NCBI GenBank assembly: GCA_002733885.1
Contig: NVXJ01000017.1
Location: 31,443 to 66,920 of the forward strand
DNA length: 35,478 bases
Direction of reading: 5' to 3'
Source: Arcobacter sp.
Lineage (GTDB): Bacteria; Campylobacterota; Campylobacteria; Campylobacterales; Sulfurimonadaceae
Within the stretch, counting starts at the first letter, position 1; every line of letters begins with the position of its first letter. Shown here piece by piece: positions 10,459-19,367 of the stretch. The position numbers and the translations under genes are program-made. A model generated the notes under the pieces. The model ran no database searches. It saw only the letters and a program-made list of their open reading frames with translations, and was not told where the DNA came from.

Positions 10459-11316
10459 CTATCGACTCACCATTCTTAATTCCATACTTTCATGCATAAA
10501 TATATGACTTAAATAAATCACAAACAAAAGTGGAAAAAATATACCCACAAAGGGGATTAGGGTTAACATATACATAAGCAGAGTACGAAGACGGATCTGA
10601 TTTCCTACCATCACCTTAATTTGTTGATACTCTTTTTTAGTATTGATACTAGAACCTACATCAAAAACTAACATCTTATGAAAGAAATAATACGCGGGAA
10701 TATTAAAGGCAATGATATTAAACAAGGGAATAAAATATAAGGGTATGAATACAATATATAAAATTATCATAATAAGAAGTGCCTTAAGGGTATACCAAAG
10801 TGTTCCTAAAAATGAACCATGCCCTTTTATCTCAAGGGGAGGGTAGTGTCGTGACTTTAGCTTAGCTACAACTAAGGGTGTGAAAAAGCCTACAATAATA
10901 ACAGCAATAATAACGGCTAGGATTAAGATAAAGTAACTCGCTATTAAAAAGATAAGCTTTTCTATAATCCAACGTAACCATGAGTACTCAAGCATACTGC
11001 TTAAGATGGCAGAACTTTGTAAGGACTCAAAAAGTGTCACTGGATTAATATCAAGAAAAGATGATTTGGTAGCATTTTCATCATAAGAAATATTAAATGA
11101 ACTTTCAGTGTGACTTGTTGTTGGGGTGGAATACTCAGTAGTGGTTTTTTCAATACGTACCGCGTTCATATTGTCATTAAGTGCTTGCATCCCATAAGCT
11201 AATACACCAAATAAGATGGCAAGTGTAATGAGCAAGGGCATAAGAGCAAGGCCGAGAAAGTAAGGGGTAAAAAAGTCTTTTACAGACAGGGCAAATAGGT
11301 TTTTTTGTTTAAACAT
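10459..11316 (-). CDS. EI24/CysZ-like integral membrane protein
   Basis: The 285-residue protein has membrane segments at about 18-42, 118-150, 172-210 and 246-270. The GxxFFxPLVVAKL stretch after the long second hydrophobic block and the NIPAYYFFHKMLVFDV segment (205-220) are typical of the EI24 family, which includes the E. coli sulfate transporter CysZ. A polar, Ser/Thr-rich insert at 43-115 is longer than usual. It is the last gene of a minus-strand run starting with the MCE module and follows the phosphoesterase gene by 14 bp. The substrate is not evident; no cysteine-biosynthesis genes are nearby. Confidence 0.8.
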   Translation of the reverse strand: MFKQKNLFALSVKDFFTPYFLGLALMPLLITLAILFGVLAYGMQALNDNMNAVRIEKTTTEYSTPTTSHTESSFNISYDENATKSSFLDINPVTLFESLQSSAILSSMLEYSWLRWIIEKLIFLIASYFILILAVIIAVIIVGFFTPLVVAKLKSRHYPPLEIKGHGSFLGTLWYTLKALLIMIILYIVFIPLYFIPLFNIIAFNIPAYYFFHKMLVFDVGSSINTKKEYQQIKVMVGNQIRLRTLLMYMLTLIPFVGIFFPLLFVIYLSHIFMHESMELRMVSR

Positions 11317-11330
11317 AAGGTATGGTCCTC

Positions 11331-12056
11331 TTAGGTAATGGTATAAACAGGAATTTCTGCTTGGGTATTGCGCTTAAGTTGGAAAGGTGAGGCATTTAGG
11401 CCTGAACTGACATATAAAAGTGTTTTTTCTTTTATATATAAACCCTTATAATAAGGTCTGTATTTCTTTAAAAACTTAGCAAAGGGATAAGCATCTGCAT
11501 TATGAGTATGGGCACTTAATAAGATATCTATGCGGTAGTTTTTTATAAGATTAATGTCATTAGGTTGATGTGCCATTAAAATAGTACTAATTTCTTCATC
11601 TAAAGAGCTAAAGAGTGCTTTAATAGGACGCTTATCTTTTTTACTAAGGGCTGACTTATTAGATAGGCCAAGGACTTGTAAGGGGGTCTCATTAATTATT
11701 AAATGGGCGCAGGCATTATCAAGGCAAGTGATATGTGAAAGAGCCAGCTCTCTTTTTAAGGCCTTTAAGCCAAAAAAAAAGTCATGATTTCCACTTACAT
11801 AATACGCAGGTGCATGTAAGCCTTTTAAGGCCGAGAGTTGTACGCGAAGCTTAAAGGCAAAACTCTTAATAATATCACCTGTAAACAAGACGAGGTCAGG
11901 ATGAAGTTCATTGATTTTAATAATAAGTTGATGTAGATAAGTAGGGTCTGTCTTTTTTGAGATATGCAGATCACATAAGTGCACAATTCGTAGCCCTTTT
12001 AAGCTGTCTGCAAAATTTCCTGGTTCAAGAGAGACTTCTTTAAAGGGAAAATGCAT
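11331..12056 (-). CDS. Calcineurin-like metallophosphoesterase
   Basis: The 241-residue protein carries the full two-metal site: Asp29 and His31 in CDLH, Asp61 in FTGD, Asn90-His91 in SGNHD, His163 in MAHQP, and His183 and His185 in SAHTH. The order and spacing are those of the YkuE/YaeI-like branch. In related enzymes the last motif is usually SGHTH; here Gly is Ala. There is no signal peptide or N-terminal membrane segment, unlike many YkuE proteins. The ATG follows directly on the stop of the YtfJ gene. The substrate is unknown; lipid A precursor or cyclic nucleotide activity cannot be told from sequence. Confidence 0.88.
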   Translation of the reverse strand: MHFPFKEVSLEPGNFADSLKGLRIVHLCDLHISKKTDPTYLHQLIIKINELHPDLVLFTGDIIKSFAFKLRVQLSALKGLHAPAYYVSGNHDFFFGLKALKRELALSHITCLDNACAHLIINETPLQVLGLSNKSALSKKDKRPIKALFSSLDEEISTILMAHQPNDINLIKNYRIDILLSAHTHNADAYPFAKFLKKYRPYYKGLYIKEKTLLYVSSGLNASPFQLKRNTQAEIPVYTIT

Positions 12057-12566
12057 TTAGATATTGTCTTGTATCAGTGAAATTAATTCTAAGATTTCTT
12101 CACTATTAAGCTTGCCTTTTTTAATAAACAAGACCTTTCCTTCTTTATCAAATAAAACAATGTTTGAACTATCATCTTTTAAGTCCCATTGCTTTACAAG
12201 GACAGACTGTAAGTCTTTAACATAAAGGGTATCAGGATATTTTTCTTGTTTAGCCTTTAGGCTTGAAGAAATGGCAAAGTTGGGTAACCAAGTAGCCGCC
12301 ATATTAATAATAGCAACAGAGGCGTATTTATTTCTATCAAAGGCTTGTTCTTTAAGAGCAATACTTACATGCTCATTCAACTCTTTTTCATCAGGGTCAA
12401 CATAAAAAAGTACATGTACCTTAGTTTTTAAAATATCAGAGGAGAAGGCCTTTCCCGAAATAATACCACCTGTATCTCCCTCAAGGATTAGGGGTGAAGG
12501 AAGCTTTCCCACTTCTAAAGCAAAGCCTAAGGCTAATACTGAAAATAATAGTGCTAAGTGTTTCAT
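12057..12566 (-). CDS. YtfJ family periplasmic protein
   Basis: The 169-residue protein has a signal peptide ending around residue 16. The order of segments follows E. coli YtfJ: GKVHVLFYVD-like strand, KELNEH, an FDRNKYASVAIIN strand, then a KEKYPDTLYVKD block, QWDLKDDSSNIVLFDKEGKV and a final helix ILELISLI. The fold is thioredoxin-like, but there is no CxxC, so it is not an oxidoreductase of the usual kind. It overlaps the DUF3137 gene by 4 bp and abuts the phosphoesterase gene. Function unknown. Confidence 0.85.
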   Translation of the reverse strand: MKHLALLFSVLALGFALEVGKLPSPLILEGDTGGIISGKAFSSDILKTKVHVLFYVDPDEKELNEHVSIALKEQAFDRNKYASVAIINMAATWLPNFAISSSLKAKQEKYPDTLYVKDLQSVLVKQWDLKDDSSNIVLFDKEGKVLFIKKGKLNSEEILELISLIQDNI

Positions 12567-13528
12567 GTCTTACTCCATAATTTTTCATTTAGTTTTAATT
12601 CTTCTATTATACCAATGGCAAGTTGAAGGGTAGTTATATATTCTTTAATAAGAGAATATTTGAGTAAAGATGAGAAAACAGTTGGCTCAAAAAGGTCTTT
12701 ATTATACGAGAGTGCAAGAAAAATATGATTGTTAACAAAGCTGATATGTAAGGGTACTTTGACACGTTTTTTATAATCAAGCAGTCTTTTCATCATAGAA
12801 TGCGTCAATATATATCGGGCTTCAATCTGATCTGTTCCATACACTACAAAGTGTTTTTCAAAAGCAGGGCTGTCCATTTTAATAAGTTCATCCCTGCTCA
12901 TATTTTTACTTTGTAGCCATGAGCCTATCACTTTGCCAAAACGTTTTTCTGCGGTATCGGGGAGAATGACAGTTTTTCCCTTAAAGGCTTTATTAAAATC
13001 AGCAACAAGAAAAAGACCTTGAAAAATAGTATGCCAAGAGCGTCTACCCTTAGAATCACGTGTTTCATACTGGGCGTGTACATCTGAAAAGACTAACTTT
13101 ACCTCGTCTAAGACTCCTTTAACAAGGTCATTCCCCTTATATCGGTCTATCCCCTTTGTAAAAATATTTGAGGCTCTAAATTGACTTTGAGGGATACATA
13201 AGGCCTTTGAATAATTTAAATTATTATCAATTTGTTTAATAAGGGGATGAATGATATTATCTTTAAATTCATGGGTATAGTCCTTACTCATAGACTTTTT
13301 AGCCCACATAAAGATAAGACCACCTATCAGTAGTGGTGCAAGATCTGTTTGGGAAAAAGAGTTAGTGTTAATAAAGATGAGGTAGCTAAGACTAAGGGCT
13401 AGGACACCAATGCTTAGGCCCACTAAAATAAGTTTTTTGGCCAAGGCCTGTCTGTCTTCTTCTAGTTTTTTAAGATCAGGATGAAGCTCATTATAAAAGA
13501 AGTCTGTTAGTGTACTTAAGGTTTTCAT
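12563..13528 (-). CDS. DUF3137 family membrane protein
   Basis: The 321-residue protein has two membrane segments close together (about 31-51 and 64-78) and a large cytoplasmic C-terminal domain. The motif TIFQGLFLVADFNKAFKG followed by TVILPD and EKRFGK is typical of DUF3137. The pairing with lemA is known in several phyla, and here the genes overlap by one base. Its biochemical role is not known. Confidence 0.88.
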   Translation of the reverse strand: MKTLSTLTDFFYNELHPDLKKLEEDRQALAKKLILVGLSIGVLALSLSYLIFINTNSFSQTDLAPLLIGGLIFMWAKKSMSKDYTHEFKDNIIHPLIKQIDNNLNYSKALCIPQSQFRASNIFTKGIDRYKGNDLVKGVLDEVKLVFSDVHAQYETRDSKGRRSWHTIFQGLFLVADFNKAFKGKTVILPDTAEKRFGKVIGSWLQSKNMSRDELIKMDSPAFEKHFVVYGTDQIEARYILTHSMMKRLLDYKKRVKVPLHISFVNNHIFLALSYNKDLFEPTVFSSLLKYSLIKEYITTLQLAIGIIEELKLNEKLWSKT

Positions 13529-14082
13529 TAGCTCTTAAACAGCTCTTTCACATTTACATTTTTTCCTTCAGCCTCAAGGGTCTCAAATACAGCCTTACGA
13601 GTATAGTACATCATATTTGCCATGAAATTAGTTGGAAACATCTCTATAGTGTTGTTATAGTCCGTCACGGCTTGGTTATAAGCACGCCTTGCTGCAGATA
13701 TCTGCGCTTCAACCTCAGTAAGGGTACGTTGTAGGTGCATGATGTTTTCATTAGCTTTTAACTCAGGATAATTTTCAACCGCAACCATAATAGAACCAAG
13801 GGCACCTGACATCTTTTGGTCAAGTTCTATCTTTGTTTCATTTGCTATATTTGGCTTCATAGCTTGAGCACGCCATTTGGTTATTTTTTCTAAGAGTTCT
13901 TTTTCATGGGACATATATTCTTGGACAGAAGAGATGAGGTTAGGTATGAGGTCAAAACGTTTTTTAAGCACCACATCAACAGAAGAAAAGATATTTTCAA
14001 CTTGATTTTTTCGTGATATCAAGGTGTTGTACATTAAAACTAAGATCAGTCCCACAATGCCTAAAATAATTAATACTGTCAT
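13528..14082 (-). CDS. lemA: LemA family protein
   Basis: The 184-residue protein has one N-terminal membrane helix (2-20) and the long coiled helical LemA domain. Family landmarks are visible: YNTLISRKNQVENIFSSVDV, the KKRFDLIPNLISSVQEYM block, YPELKANENIMHLQ and RAYNQAVTDYNNTIEMFPTN. Bacterial LemA function is poorly defined. It starts a four-gene overlapping set (lemA, DUF3137, ytfJ, phosphoesterase). Confidence 0.95.
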   Translation of the reverse strand: MTVLIILGIVGLILVLMYNTLISRKNQVENIFSSVDVVLKKRFDLIPNLISSVQEYMSHEKELLEKITKWRAQAMKPNIANETKIELDQKMSGALGSIMVAVENYPELKANENIMHLQRTLTEVEAQISAARRAYNQAVTDYNNTIEMFPTNFMANMMYYTRKAVFETLEAEGKNVNVKELFKS

Positions 14083-14118: not shown

Positions 14119-14787
14119 TTATTCAGAAGTTAAAACTTCTATTTTAGCTTGAATACGAAGTTTTTTAGTTGTGTCCTTTTCTCTAGAGGCTTGCAATTTT
14201 AACCACGAGATAAGGGGATGCTTATAGCCTGAAAAAGAAAGTTCTTTAATGAGCAGAGAGATGTTTTCTTGAGTGATAAAGTCACGTGAAAGTGAAGAAG
14301 AGATGACTTTAGAAGATAAGGGCCTTATATTTTTAAGTATTTTGTTAATACCTTCAGCATTTTTTTTCTCTAAGGCATAGGCAAAACCTTGGTATTGTTG
14401 AGGCAATAAATTAATATCTTTTTCTTGAAGTGTAGAATTTAAAAAAGAAAGATAAGCTTCTTGAGAAGCATTAGGCTGAATTATTAGTAAGGATCTGGCA
14501 TTTTTACAGTTTTGAAACTTTAAGACACATACTTGCATGGCGCATTGAGTGAGTTCTATATCAATAAGTACTTTTAAGTCAGCGGATTGTTTAGCATGCC
14601 TTCTAGCCTGTCTTAAATCTATCCTTGCATGGGATTCTTTTGCTTGTAAAAAATGACTTTGGTAGGTCTGTGTCATATTTACAGCATTATATTGCCATTT
14701 ATTTTTTGGCTGAGAAGTGGAACATGAGGATAATATAAGTACACAAAGTAAGGCTAAAATATTATTGAGATTAAGGAAGTTCAACAT
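14119..14787 (-). CDS. Lipoprotein of the MCE transport operon
   Basis: The 222-residue protein has a lipobox LSSC with lipidated Cys22. The mature part is helical and rich in Lys and Gln, with an RQARRHAKQSADL segment and a Cys-containing stretch (Cys82, Cys87 and Cys93 approximately). It overlaps the MCE gene by 17 bp and is the fourth gene of the module, the position taken by an accessory lipoprotein in the C. jejuni Iam locus. It does not resemble PqiC or MlaA. A role in the envelope-spanning lipid transport path is inferred from position only. Confidence 0.75.
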   Translation of the reverse strand: MLNFLNLNNILALLCVLILSSCSTSQPKNKWQYNAVNMTQTYQSHFLQAKESHARIDLRQARRHAKQSADLKVLIDIELTQCAMQVCVLKFQNCKNARSLLIIQPNASQEAYLSFLNSTLQEKDINLLPQQYQGFAYALEKKNAEGINKILKNIRPLSSKVISSSLSRDFITQENISLLIKELSFSGYKHPLISWLKLQASREKDTTKKLRIQAKIEVLTSE

Positions 14788-15706
14788 TTTCTTCTCCTTC
14801 CTTTCCTAATAATGCATTAACCTTATTTGATAGCTCACCCATCTCATCAATAAGTACCTTCATCTCATCTTTAAAGTAGTTAATGTCTTGATCAGATTCA
14901 GCTAAGGCTTGAACTGTTTTATCCATGAGTCTTAGTTTATATCGCAGGTCTTTTAAAATTTCATTTCCTTGTTTTATACCCGTTGAGGCAGGCTGAATGA
15001 GATCTTGTCGAAATTCACTTACCCCATCATCAGCATTTTTTATGATGGAATGTAGGTCGCTAAGTACGAGGTTAAGATTATGTAAACTCTCATCCAGTTC
15101 TTTAGCAGACCTTTGATCTCCGGTAACAGAGGCTAATAAGCTTGGGGCCTTTGAAAGTTTTGAAGAAAAGTTCTCAACATTATGCAGGGCCTTTTGAAAA
15201 CTTTGATTATTATCAGTGAGTGAATTACTAAGAAAATGAATATTTCCAACGATATTTTGAAGCTCAGAAATAATAGGTTGTATATTTGAGATAGCTTCAT
15301 TGATACCATCTTTAATCTGCATACGTAAGACTGCACCTTCGGGAAGAGGGGGCTTGTTCATGGATGAGTTCAGCGTTATTTTGGCCTTTCCAATAAGAGG
15401 CTTTTCTAAGATAAAACGTGATCCTTGACGTACCCACTTTGTATTATGTTCAGGTATAGAAAGAGAAATGATAACCTCACCTTTTTCATTTAAGCCAAGG
15501 TCACTTACCTGCCCAATCTCAAATCCAGAAAATAATATAGGCATCCCTTTTTCAATTTCTTCTGCATTATGTGCAATAAGTTTGTACTGCTTATGGGCTT
15601 CAAAGGCACCTTTTTTTTCAATAACATAAAGTAAGGTAACAAGAATAAGAAAAGAGCTTAAGAGTATAAAGATACCAACACTTGTTAATATTTTTTGATT
15701 AGGCAT
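14771..15706 (-). CDS. MCE domain protein (MlaD-type substrate-binding subunit)
   Basis: The 311-residue protein has one N-terminal membrane helix (8-30) and an MCE domain at about 38-115. It starts YKLIAHNAEEIEKGMPILFSGF and includes IGQVSDLGL and the PLIGKAKITL strand. A long amphipathic helical tail (130-311) follows. MCE proteins form hexameric rings that bind and shuttle lipids in the periplasm. A strong GAGGGGGG ribosome binding site precedes the ATG. It overlaps the ATPase-like gene by 22 bp and the lipoprotein gene by 17 bp. Confidence 0.92.
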   Translation of the reverse strand: MPNQKILTSVGIFILLSSFLILVTLLYVIEKKGAFEAHKQYKLIAHNAEEIEKGMPILFSGFEIGQVSDLGLNEKGEVIISLSIPEHNTKWVRQGSRFILEKPLIGKAKITLNSSMNKPPLPEGAVLRMQIKDGINEAISNIQPIISELQNIVGNIHFLSNSLTDNNQSFQKALHNVENFSSKLSKAPSLLASVTGDQRSAKELDESLHNLNLVLSDLHSIIKNADDGVSEFRQDLIQPASTGIKQGNEILKDLRYKLRLMDKTVQALAESDQDINYFKDEMKVLIDEMGELSNKVNALLGKEGEENVELP

Positions 15707-16116
15707 TTTCCCCCCTCATAATAAGCTTGCATGTGTTTAAGGTCAATGATATGAACACGGTGTATGTCAATCTTTAATTTTTCCATAGTACTTAGAATTA
15801 AGTCCACATTCAGGTGTTCATCTAGTAAATGAAAAGGTTGTTCTATAATAATTTTAGCATCTTTAAGCATATTTGCTCGAATTAGTTGAGTAAGAAATTT
15901 TTCTTGTGCATTACAGCTAATATAACGATAAGAGGCAATATGACTTAAATTCAAGGCTTTTAAGGCAAGTAAGGCCTTTTCTTGCGCCTGTGTAGCACTT
16001 AGTCTTTCATGTGTTTGCGAAATTAGCATAATGTTTTCAAGCATACTTAGATTAGATAAGAGGGGTGTTTGACTTGAAACGAAACTGACCAAGGTGTCAT
16101 CATAGTTTTTTTCCAA
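15685..16116 (-). CDS. Degenerate ABC ATPase of the MCE operon, no Walker A
   Basis: From the TTG at 16116 this gives 143 residues; MlaF-type ATPases have about 250. The order of parts is still that of an ABC protein. A Q-loop-like FVSSQTPLL (12-20) is followed by SNLSMLENIMLISQ. The signature position reads ISCNAQ instead of LSGGQ, Walker B is KIIIEQP (88-94) instead of LLLDEP, and IIDLKH stands where VTHD is expected. There is no Walker A. The same frame is open upstream to 16245, inside the permease gene, and that part (GDIIINSVHVS) still resembles an ABC protein. The real start is therefore unclear: a TTG with no ribosome binding site, or an AUU codon near 16176 behind AGAGGTGAT. It cannot bind and hydrolyse ATP in the usual way; it may be a structural remnant or a decaying gene. 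Confidence 0.65.
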   Translation of the reverse strand: MEKNYDDTLVSFVSSQTPLLSNLSMLENIMLISQTHERLSATQAQEKALLALKALNLSHIASYRYISCNAQEKFLTQLIRANMLKDAKIIIEQPFHLLDEHLNVDLILSTMEKLKIDIHRVHIIDLKHMQAYYEGGKCLIKKY

Positions 16117-16151
16117 AAAGCTATGAAGGTCTTGAGATGATTCATAAAGAC

Positions 16152-16937
16152 TTACATGTACTGAATTAATAATAATATCACCTCTATGCTCATAATTGTT
16201 ATGATGAGTTTTACCATGCCGTTTAACACGGCAATAGGAATACCGCTATAAGACATATCCGCATTAAGACCAGAATATATAGGTATGAGTATAACAAAAA
16301 AACCAAAGAGAAGATTTTTTATAAAAAATAGGGAAATATCATATAAACTAATGGCATGGATAAGGGTGCGAATGTATAAGTCCAAACCTGTTTCAAAAAA
16401 CAAAAGAAGATATAAATAGCCACTTAAAAGCATAATGATACTAAGTAAGGAAGCCAGTAAGACAGTAGAAATAAGGCCTGAAATAATACGAGGTAAAAAG
16501 AGGTATTCTATAATATTTATATTAAAAGCCTTAAGGGTGTTTAACTCCTTAGATACCTTCATCACAGCAATTTCTGTATTAATAGCCGCACCTGAACGTA
16601 GTGCTAGTAGAAGGACTGTCATAAGGGGTGCAAACTCATTAATAACTAAGGCAATTAAGATATTTCCTATATGATCTTCCAATCCATAATCTAAGGCTAA
16701 ATGAACAATTAAAGCGATAAATACAGAACCAAAAACAAGGCCTGTAATAAAGAGCATAGGAAGGATTTGAACGGAGGTAAAGTAAATCTGCTTTACTAAG
16801 ATTGTTCGCGTTGCTGAATTATAAGAGTTTTTTGAAAATAGTTTAAAAAGACACAAAAAAGTAAAATATAAGGCTTCTTTAAAAATAAAAAAGAGCTTGA
16901 ATGTTTTAAGCCCGATAGCTTGAACAAAGCTATTCAT
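16152..16937 (-). CDS. MlaE-type ABC permease (MCE operon)
   Basis: The 261-residue inner-membrane permease has several hydrophobic segments and the family core RSGAAINTEIAVMKVSKEL, matching the RSGSAI-AEI-MKV consensus of MlaE proteins. I place the start at 16937 because AAGGAG (16946-16951 on the complement) sits at the right distance; a longer frame from 16988 has no such site. The C-terminus is normal for the family, so the overlap with the downstream ATPase frame comes from the ATPase side. It corresponds to the permease of the C. jejuni Iam pair. It should pair with the MCE protein to move lipids. Confidence 0.92.
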   Translation of the reverse strand: MNSFVQAIGLKTFKLFFIFKEALYFTFLCLFKLFSKNSYNSATRTILVKQIYFTSVQILPMLFITGLVFGSVFIALIVHLALDYGLEDHIGNILIALVINEFAPLMTVLLLALRSGAAINTEIAVMKVSKELNTLKAFNINIIEYLFLPRIISGLISTVLLASLLSIIMLLSGYLYLLLFFETGLDLYIRTLIHAISLYDISLFFIKNLLFGFFVILIPIYSGLNADMSYSGIPIAVLNGMVKLIITIMSIEVILLLIQYM

Positions 16938-17582: not shown

Positions 17583-19367
17583 TTACTTTTCACGTAGAAG
17601 TCTAAAGCCAATATTATAAGAAGTGAAGTCATTTACATTAGCTCCACGATGTGAAAGAGTTATCTCCTCAGGTGTTGAAAACCATGATCCCCCTCGAATG
17701 ACTTTTAAAAGCTCTTCTTCAGGCTCTAAGCTGTAATTATCACTATAAGAATTAGCACACCATTCCCAAACATTGCCTGTTACATCATGTAAGCCCCAAG
17801 CATTTGGAATTTTTTCGCCAACATCATGAGTCAGGCTATTTGAGTTTGTTTTAATCCAGGCATAATCATGGGCATTTTCAGGGTATTGACTTCTCCAAAA
17901 GCTTTTCTTAATCGTTGAAGCATCTTCATCTCCCCAATAATACCTTGTTGAAGAACCTGCTTTTGCCGCATATTCCCATTCTTCTTCTGTGGGAAGTCTA
18001 TAAACCTTAGCTGTAACATCGCTTAACCAAGCCGCATACGCGGTAGCATCATCCCAAGTGATACCCACAACAGGTTGGGTGTCTGTGGTCCAATTTGGAG
18101 GTAACATTCTTTTTTGTTTACTGATACGAAGATATTCTTTATATTCAATATTAGTGACTTCAAAACGACCTATGTAAAAGTCATTTTCAATATTAACCAT
18201 ATGCGAAGGAGCCTCATCTTCATTATCATGATCCGAACCCATCATAAAACTACCTGCCTTGATTAAGACCATCACGGGTTCAATAAAGCGAGCATTTTCT
18301 CGGGATATGCGTTTTTCTTCTACTAAGGCAGCTGTAAGTAAGGCTTCTTCTTTTTCTTTTTGTATTTCTAAAAGCTTAGTCTCTTGCGCCTCTTCTTTAA
18401 GTCGTTTTTTTTCTTCTTCTTGTTTCAATCTCTCTAACTCTTTTTTCGCTTCGTCATTCTTATTTGATTTTTCTTCAAGTTCTTTTTGCTTTTTTAAGGT
18501 TTCATCTGCCTTCCTAGTAAGCACTTGTGTATCAAGTTTTGCCTGCTTAGTATGTTTACCATTTGCATAGGTGCTGAGGTAATGAGCATAGGCAGTAAGA
18601 GAACCAAGCTTTAAGGTCTTCATCCAAAGTTTTTCTTCCTTGTCTTCAAGTTTATTAGGGATATTAAAATAAAAATCTTGTGAAGATAAGTGAATAAAAC
18701 TTTGAGGATACCGTTTTTTAAAGGTTTTAAACCCTTCATTATTTGAAAGACCATTTAGTGATAACATAGCCAAAACCTTAGTGGTAAAAGGATAAGGTTT
18801 AACGGTTTTATTAGGTTTTGTTGAGAGAATGATATCTGTGTTTTTATCAGAGTCTATAGGGGCTATTCCTAGCTTTCTAGCACGAAATCTATCCCCAAAT
18901 GGGTTAGCATAACTTGAATCAATGATAATGATATTTAAACGAGAGTTCATCTTATCCATCTTGCTGGTAATAGCTTCAAGATTAATGGCCTCATATAAAA
19001 CATGATAGTCACTTTCAATGGAAGCTTCAATGGGAATAAGATAGTTTCTTTCTTTGACCTGTATCATATGTCCAGCAAAGTAAAAAAGAGCAATGCCATT
19101 AGGCTTAAGACTGGCCTTGAATTGGCGTAAACCCTTAATAATATCTCGTTTACTTGCATCTTCTTTATAAATGACTTCAAAGTCATGGTTTTCTAAAAAT
19201 GTCTTCATCTTACGCCCGTTCTCGATGGCGACAGGAAGTGGTGAATCGTCATAGTCACCATTGCTTATGATATAAGCAACTCTTGTTTCTTTTTCTAATG
19301 TTTGTATAGAAAGTTTATTTGCATGTAGCAAGGATAGTACGGATATAAAAAGTAAAAAGTAACGCAT
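17583..19367 (-). CDS. Caspase-like (inactive) and SUMF1-like fusion protein
   Basis: The 594-residue secreted protein has four parts. First is a signal peptide (1-16). Second is a caspase-like (peptidase C14) domain, about 25-235. Third is a charged coiled coil (about 285-350) preceded by a YLSTYANGKHTKQA motif. Fourth is a SUMF1/FGE-like domain (363-594) with YRLPTEEEWEYAAKAG, GLHDVTGNVWEW and IRGGSW. In the caspase fold His100 is kept (FAGHM), but the usual DACR motif reads DSSY (150-153), so the catalytic Cys is Ser152. The FGE-like domain has only Cys537 and lacks the two active-site cysteines. It is therefore more likely a binding or scaffold protein than an enzyme. Proteins with this domain order occur in many bacteria. 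Confidence 0.88.
   Translation of the reverse strand: MRYFLLFISVLSLLHANKLSIQTLEKETRVAYIISNGDYDDSPLPVAIENGRKMKTFLENHDFEVIYKEDASKRDIIKGLRQFKASLKPNGIALFYFAGHMIQVKERNYLIPIEASIESDYHVLYEAINLEAITSKMDKMNSRLNIIIIDSSYANPFGDRFRARKLGIAPIDSDKNTDIILSTKPNKTVKPYPFTTKVLAMLSLNGLSNNEGFKTFKKRYPQSFIHLSSQDFYFNIPNKLEDKEEKLWMKTLKLGSLTAYAHYLSTYANGKHTKQAKLDTQVLTRKADETLKKQKELEEKSNKNDEAKKELERLKQEEEKKRLKEEAQETKLLEIQKEKEEALLTAALVEEKRISRENARFIEPVMVLIKAGSFMMGSDHDNEDEAPSHMVNIENDFYIGRFEVTNIEYKEYLRISKQKRMLPPNWTTDTQPVVGITWDDATAYAAWLSDVTAKVYRLPTEEEWEYAAKAGSSTRYYWGDEDASTIKKSFWRSQYPENAHDYAWIKTNSNSLTHDVGEKIPNAWGLHDVTGNVWEWCANSYSDNYSLEPEEELLKVIRGGSWFSTPEEITLSHRGANVNDFTSYNIGFRLLREK

Follow-up and report, generated by a model that had tools for sequence, protein, structure and literature searches.

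A homologue of ABC nucleotide-binding domains (NBDs) without Walker A, here called the pseudo-NBD, is encoded between the genes of an MlaE-type permease and an MCE protein in a 35,478-nucleotide stretch of Arcobacter sp. DNA (the window, i.e., the whole stretch analysed), and it is probably a fixed, non-catalytic second subunit that docks on the permease or locks it without ATP, in an ABC-MCE lipid transport system that is distinct and comprises four genes. More tentatively, these loci may represent a class of MlaE-type MCE transporters, found in Campylobacterota and Syntrophales, in which the ATPase has been permanently replaced by a structural pseudo-NBD, lipid moves without ATP and the dose of the subunit is set by a conserved, embedded AUU. 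Hydrolysis of ATP by paired NBDs is the defining feature of ABC transporters; if the proposal is true, an MlaE-MCE channel works without an NBD carrying Walker A and the signature.

The operon and its ATPase-like subunit

On the minus strand of the window, the genes for the permease, the pseudo-NBD, the MCE protein and a lipoprotein-like protein form one operon in which all frames are open:

16152..16937, minus strand: MlaE-type permease, 261 aa, ATG start (PF02405, E 1.2e-45)
16179..16184, minus strand: Shine-Dalgarno sequence GAGGTG of the pseudo-NBD, within the permease codons for Glu-Val
16171..16173, minus strand: putative ATT (AUU) start of the pseudo-NBD, 5 nt after GAGGTG and 19 nt before the permease stop
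15685..16173, minus strand: pseudo-NBD (Walker-A-less ABC nucleotide-binding-domain homologue), ~162 aa plus stop
14771..15706, minus strand: MCE (MlaD-like) protein, 311 aa (PF02470, E 3.2e-7, above the gathering score)
14119..14787, minus strand: fourth gene, lipoprotein-like, 222 aa, all-helical, with lipobox Cys22

The open frame of the pseudo-NBD (15685-16245, minus strand, 186 codons) overlaps both the permease gene, which stops at 16152, and the MCE gene, whose ATG lies at 15706. The initial annotation had described an MCE system with intact permease, MCE protein and lipoprotein and a frame of 186 open codons overlapping both neighbours, and the coordinates, the open frames and the matches to PF02405 and PF02470 agree with it. 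The MCE protein has a single MCE domain followed by a long helical C-terminus, and its gene was found at 56 of 60 orthologous loci; the fourth gene accompanies the pseudo-NBD at 54 of 60. In the alignment of fourth-gene homologues the lipobox Cys22 is invariant, and the AlphaFold2 model of the product (pLDDT 94.6) is helical throughout and TPR-like, with neither a Pfam family nor a significant PDB relative found by the Pfam search and the PDB fold comparison. Close after the operon and on the same strand lie LemA, DUF3137, YtfJ-like, metallophosphoesterase and CysZ/EI24-like genes (10459-14082, minus strand), an adjacency not kept at other orthologous loci. A further gene of the window (17583-19367, minus strand) encodes a fusion in which a caspase-like domain (PF00656) is joined to a formylglycine-generating-enzyme-like domain (PF03781), with DSSYANP at the usual catalytic Cys motif (D-A-C-R) and a remaining His (FAGH); to judge from these residues, the caspase-like part may also be catalytically dead.

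A motif search of the pseudo-NBD frame in the window found no G....GK[ST], no SGG[QM] and no VTHD; the Walker B stretch reads KIIIEQP and the signature stretch SCNAQEKF. Among 90 aligned homologues, both the Walker A P-loop GxxxxGK[ST] and the LSGG[Q/M] signature are absent (0/90 each), the H-loop region has no conserved His, and the column of the catalytic Glu holds R/T/Q/S/K and other residues, Glu not being among them. The Walker B Asp is retained in 46 of the 90, often in Syntrophales, and the window protein has Glu there. This reading of the motifs confirms the earlier description of a catalytically dead ATPase with no Walker A, EQ for DE, no LSGGQ and no VTHD. What the 90 proteins do share are the invariant P37, N47 and R99 and the nearly invariant L38, N41, I51 and A100, and the best-conserved residues sit in the post-Q-loop and helical-subdomain region. 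In ABC transporters this face of the NBD meets the coupling helix. The coupling-helix segment of the permease, TEIAVMKVSKELNTL, is present and in register with canonical MlaE, its residues being family-specific; the coupling helix is the part that binds MlaF in MlaFEDB (PMC7790496).

The pseudo-NBD is predicted to have an ABC nucleotide-binding-domain fold (AlphaFold2 with 66 homologues in the alignment, pLDDT 93.5, pTM 0.89). In a Foldseek comparison against the PDB the top 50 matches to the model are all ABC NBDs (LptB 4p31, E 5e-8), and the MlaF structures 6xgz, 6z5u and 6xbd are among the matches (query TM 0.66-0.76). Sequence-profile matches to ABC ATPases in the PDB reach E 2e-9, and hhalign against the canonical MCE ATPases of relatives gives a probability of 90.5 (E 1.3e-6); in Pfam, four of 66 members match ABC_tran weakly and the window protein does not match, and in NCBIfam the window frame matches ABC ATPases below threshold, beginning at the Q-loop region. 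A pseudo-NBD profile detected 23 of 397 sampled Campylobacterota genomes at 131-209 bits in a first scan, whereas ordinary ABC ATPases reached at most 52 bits, and by this separation in sequence the pseudo-NBD is a family of its own, homologous to ABC ATPases. The protein had been taken for an N-terminally cut ATPase; this description does not hold, as the fold is compact and complete, with ~162 residues from the first beta strand, and the AUU start is conserved. The family is unknown to Pfam, and ordinary gene callers will miss or truncate a gene with an AUU start inside an overlapping gene. Literature searches turned up neither work on MlaE in Sulfurimonas nor a description of an MCE NBD lacking Walker motifs.

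With the permease as query among 100 relatives, ~19 orthologues (38-75% identical) were distinct from ordinary MlaE permeases (22-28%), and the next frame encoded the same Walker-less protein beside every one that was read. The pseudo-NBD profile was also positive in 13 of 395 Desulfobacterota genomes (two of them already counted), and the loci read there have the same frame and the same start signal. In a permease search of named genomes, the pseudo-NBD follows the permease at 79 of the best 80 of 118 matches (the contig of the 80th ends too early); the hosts of these 80 loci are Sulfurimonas, Sulfuricurvum, Sulfurovum and relatives, together with Syntrophus, Smithella, Syntrophaceae and other deltaproteobacteria. 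Altogether the pseudo-NBD was found at every orthologous locus of readable length, flanked by an MlaE-type permease and an MCE protein (94 non-redundant loci and about a dozen more); these counts of taxonomic spread are lower bounds from the two phyla sampled, Campylobacterota and Desulfobacterota, and many loci come from metagenome-assembled genomes with doubtful names. In the permease tree, six canonical MlaE rows split from the pseudo-NBD-linked permeases (SH-aLRT 100), and within the pseudo-NBD-linked clade the rows of Campylobacterota, with the exception of one unplaced row, lie apart from the deltaproteobacterial rows. Three labels in this tree, "Methanosarcina", "Myxococcota" and "Pseudomonadota", were kept out of the evidence on spread; they probably reflect mis-binning or outdated naming of syntrophic deltaproteobacteria.

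Three other genomes of the same genus deserve mention. At locus L008 (genome G001) a frameshift near position 2030, either a sequencing error or a real lesion, interrupts the permease, and the pseudo-NBD is intact. Two genomes without the pseudo-NBD system have tandem canonical MlaE permeases (G003:C58:90452-93364 and G004:C10:216495-219453).

Energisation of the permease

The window's genome (G000, 100% complete) has a single MlaE permease. In comparison with Campylobacterota MCE ATPases, no ABC ATPase of this genome exceeds 112 bits (an FtsE-like protein scores 137 bits against a Syntrophales one); MCE ATPases score at least 154 bits among themselves. No MlaF/MceG-like ATPase was found in this genome or in three relatives (G001, G005 and G017), the best match reaching about 105 bits, whereas true ones reach 150-363, and no canonical MCE permease was found in the same three relatives. 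The top ABC proteins of the window's genome were read by eye as candidates for an orphan MlaF and were rejected, since they resemble other kinds of transporter (TauB/NrtD-, MacB-, ModC-, FtsE-, PstB-, LolD-, ZnuC- and LptB-like). The initial annotation had considered that the ATPase might be encoded elsewhere and had proposed a search for a second intact MlaF/IamA-like gene; none turned up in the window's genome, and the four genomes named above do not support the suggestion. Of the genomes with the pseudo-NBD system outside the window's genus, most also have a canonical MCE system. In one further genome (G022) a canonical MCE ATPase lies at a contig edge and its permease is missing, probably owing to an assembly gap. 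The window's genome also contains a LetB/PqiB-like frame of 897 residues in which several MCE domains occur (G000:C11:16270-18615, L189-L192), and a non-ABC MCE system is thus probable in this genome.

These results bear on the strongest alternative, namely that the energy reaches the permease in trans from an ABC ATPase, either unrelated or shared, and that the pseudo-NBD serves as a subunit for regulation or assembly. MceG, which powers and stabilises both Mce1 and Mce4 of M. tuberculosis (PMC9947336), offers a precedent, and so does the canonical MCE system held by most operon-bearing genomes outside the window's genus; we nevertheless regard this alternative as rather unlikely, because an MCE-type ATPase is missing from the window's genome, with its one MlaE permease, and from the three relatives. 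From the ABC mechanism it also follows that pairing with another NBD would leave every ATP site incomplete, since the pseudo-NBD contributes neither Walker A nor a signature, and for this reason we favour docking or locking without ATP. A general ABC ATPase (FtsE-, LolD- or LptB-type) could transiently replace the pseudo-NBD and, in genomes that also have a canonical MCE system, the ATPase of that system could serve both. In genomes with both systems the pseudo-NBD might instead serve the canonical MCE transporter as an MlaB-like regulator, and such coexistence is found in many genomes; this is improbable, however, as the pseudo-NBD always shares an operon with a permease and an MCE protein of its own and is present without a canonical system too.

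For the favoured reading, docking or locking without ATP, we infer a mechanism in which the pseudo-NBD would dock on the cytoplasmic coupling helix of the permease, as MlaF does in MlaFEDB, and would hold the permease dimer or regulate it, neither binding nor hydrolysing ATP. The permease-MCE channel would then move its presumed lipid cargo without ATP hydrolysis by a cognate NBD, either down a lipid gradient or driven from elsewhere. Among the options raised by the initial annotation, operation without ATP appears to be the best supported of those left. The direction of lipid transport by Mla is still disputed (PMC7790496), and the pseudo-NBD system, if it works as proposed, would be a natural test of both the energy need and the lipid direction in MCE transport.

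An AUU start inside the permease gene and selection on the frame

No ATG, GTG or TTG opens the conserved pseudo-NBD protein, and in 68 of 94 non-redundant loci none occurs from the upstream stop to residue 10. The codon at the conserved start is ATT in 86 loci, ATC in seven and, in one (L009), CTT followed by ATG one codon later. It is preceded, at the same place in nearly every locus, by GAGGTG and five bases, and the permease stop lies 19 nt downstream of the ATT in 87 of 94 loci. The bases of this signal encode Glu-Val-x-Ser-Leu in the permease, and their codons depart from expectations drawn from each permease's own codon usage: Glu is GAG in 94/94 (expected 40.4), Val is GTG in 90/92 (expected 18.8), Ser is TCA in 89/90 (expected 11.6) and Leu is TTR (TTA/TTG) in 87/87 (expected 27.4). 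The synonymous freezing is confined to these four codons, the Leu codon of the spacer being free (commonest codon 42%), and TCA TTA is kept even in G+C-rich genes (GC3 0.9-0.95). In the window there are three tandem ATT codons, so that the exact start is uncertain by one codon, conservation favouring the middle one; the 24 open codons 5' of the ATT merely overlap the permease, and with the ATT agreed on by homologues (16173-16171) the protein begins precisely where the predicted fold has its first beta strand.

The simplest reading is that the pseudo-NBD is translated from AUU, as it appears to be from the conserved Shine-Dalgarno sequence and start codon, the permease codons frozen there and the absence of both an ordinary start and a slippery site. 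Part of the reason for AUU rather than AUG may be that AUG at this place would require Cys or Trp in the permease. By analogy, AUU would lower the expression level of the pseudo-NBD, conserved staphylococcal AUU starts with an extended Shine-Dalgarno sequence giving about 10% of AUG expression (PMC13009471).

If a -1 ribosomal frameshift extended the permease at its C-terminus by the pseudo-NBD, this would account for the missing ATG/GTG/TTG start and for the frame of the pseudo-NBD, which is -1 with respect to the 3' end of the permease gene, but we consider it very improbable: an X_XXY_YYZ heptamer is absent from the overlap save in two loci at its far end, 27 loci have a stop in the pseudo-NBD frame directly 5' of GGT, L009 has its ATG one codon later, and the frozen bases are those of the Shine-Dalgarno sequence and of the codon five bases on, while the spacer varies. 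A 433-aa open frame at L182 is fusion-like in appearance. An apparent permease-NBD fusion at L181 (418-aa open frame) was rejected, since the open frame merely crosses the permease in another frame.

The pseudo-NBD frame is open in all non-redundant loci, and of about a hundred loci only one has a stop (L178, one TAA in the end region of the frame). The median dN/dS is 0.166 (Nei-Gojobori, outside the overlap, for pairs with dS<2 among 154 pairs), and no orthologue with an intact Walker A occurs among about a hundred orthologous loci. As judged by these comparisons, the gene is under old purifying selection and functional; it is not a recent pseudogene, because it is conserved in two phyla with a median dN/dS of 0.17 and has no intact orthologue. 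The view that the frame is a decaying pseudogene of an MlaF-like ATPase, for which the loss of all catalytic motifs, the want of an ordinary start codon and a length below that of MlaF could be cited, is refuted by the shortened frame shared by about a hundred loci, the low dN/dS, the invariant start signal and the confidently predicted compact fold. The initial annotation had argued against random decay, rightly in view of the same dead subunit in more than 100 relatives at a dN/dS of ~0.17, and had allowed that the system may be losing function, which the two-phylum conservation, the same low ratio and the lack of an intact orthologue contradict; the orthologue and dN/dS comparison it had suggested revealed no signs of a pseudogene.

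Comparison with known systems

Conserved genes with AUU starts include infC, pcnB of E. coli and staphylococcal cvfC1 (PMC13009471 and its references). The pseudo-NBD resembles them in its putative AUU start with a strong, extended Shine-Dalgarno sequence conserved between species, and differs in that this AUU is embedded in the upstream gene, which the frame overlaps, and is conserved over two phyla. Leaving infC aside, it may rank among the AUU starts with the broadest conservation. The infC of the window's genome (L184) has no ATG near its 5' end, its likely start being TTG after CGAGGT.

As a transport system, the operon resembles MlaFEDB and the Campylobacterota MCE ABC transporter in its MlaE-type permease with a coupling-helix segment, its MCE protein and a gene of predicted NBD fold, ATPase-like, between the two. 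Unlike MlaF, the pseudo-NBD has no Walker A, catalytic Glu, signature or H-loop, measures ~160 instead of ~250 aa and appears to start with AUU; unlike in MlaFEDB, the fourth gene encodes an all-helical lipoprotein, and the permease belongs to a clade of its own (SH-aLRT 100, six canonical rows). The norm of ABC-MCE systems of the Mla type is a functional cognate ABC ATPase, whereas here it is absent from the operon, and the MlaF/MceG type is absent from the window's genome. In being an MCE system whose energising ATPase need not be a dedicated subunit, it recalls Mce1 and Mce4 with their shared MceG, whose motifs are intact and whose ATPase activity is needed (PMC9947336). In contrast to the MceG systems, the window's genome has no MceG/MlaF-like ATPase and encodes a dead NBD in its place. 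MCE transport without an ABC ATPase occurs in LetAB/YebST. It also occurs in PqiABC, with the components PqiA, PqiB and PqiC (PMC10897342). PqiABC and LetAB, however, use PqiA/LetA-type membrane proteins, whereas the window permease is a true MlaE (PF02405). Heterodimeric ABC transporters keep a degenerate-site NBD despite its lost catalytic residues and retain one complete composite site with Walker A. The pseudo-NBD system differs from these degenerate-site heterodimers in that its operon has a single NBD gene, which has lost both Walker A and the signature.
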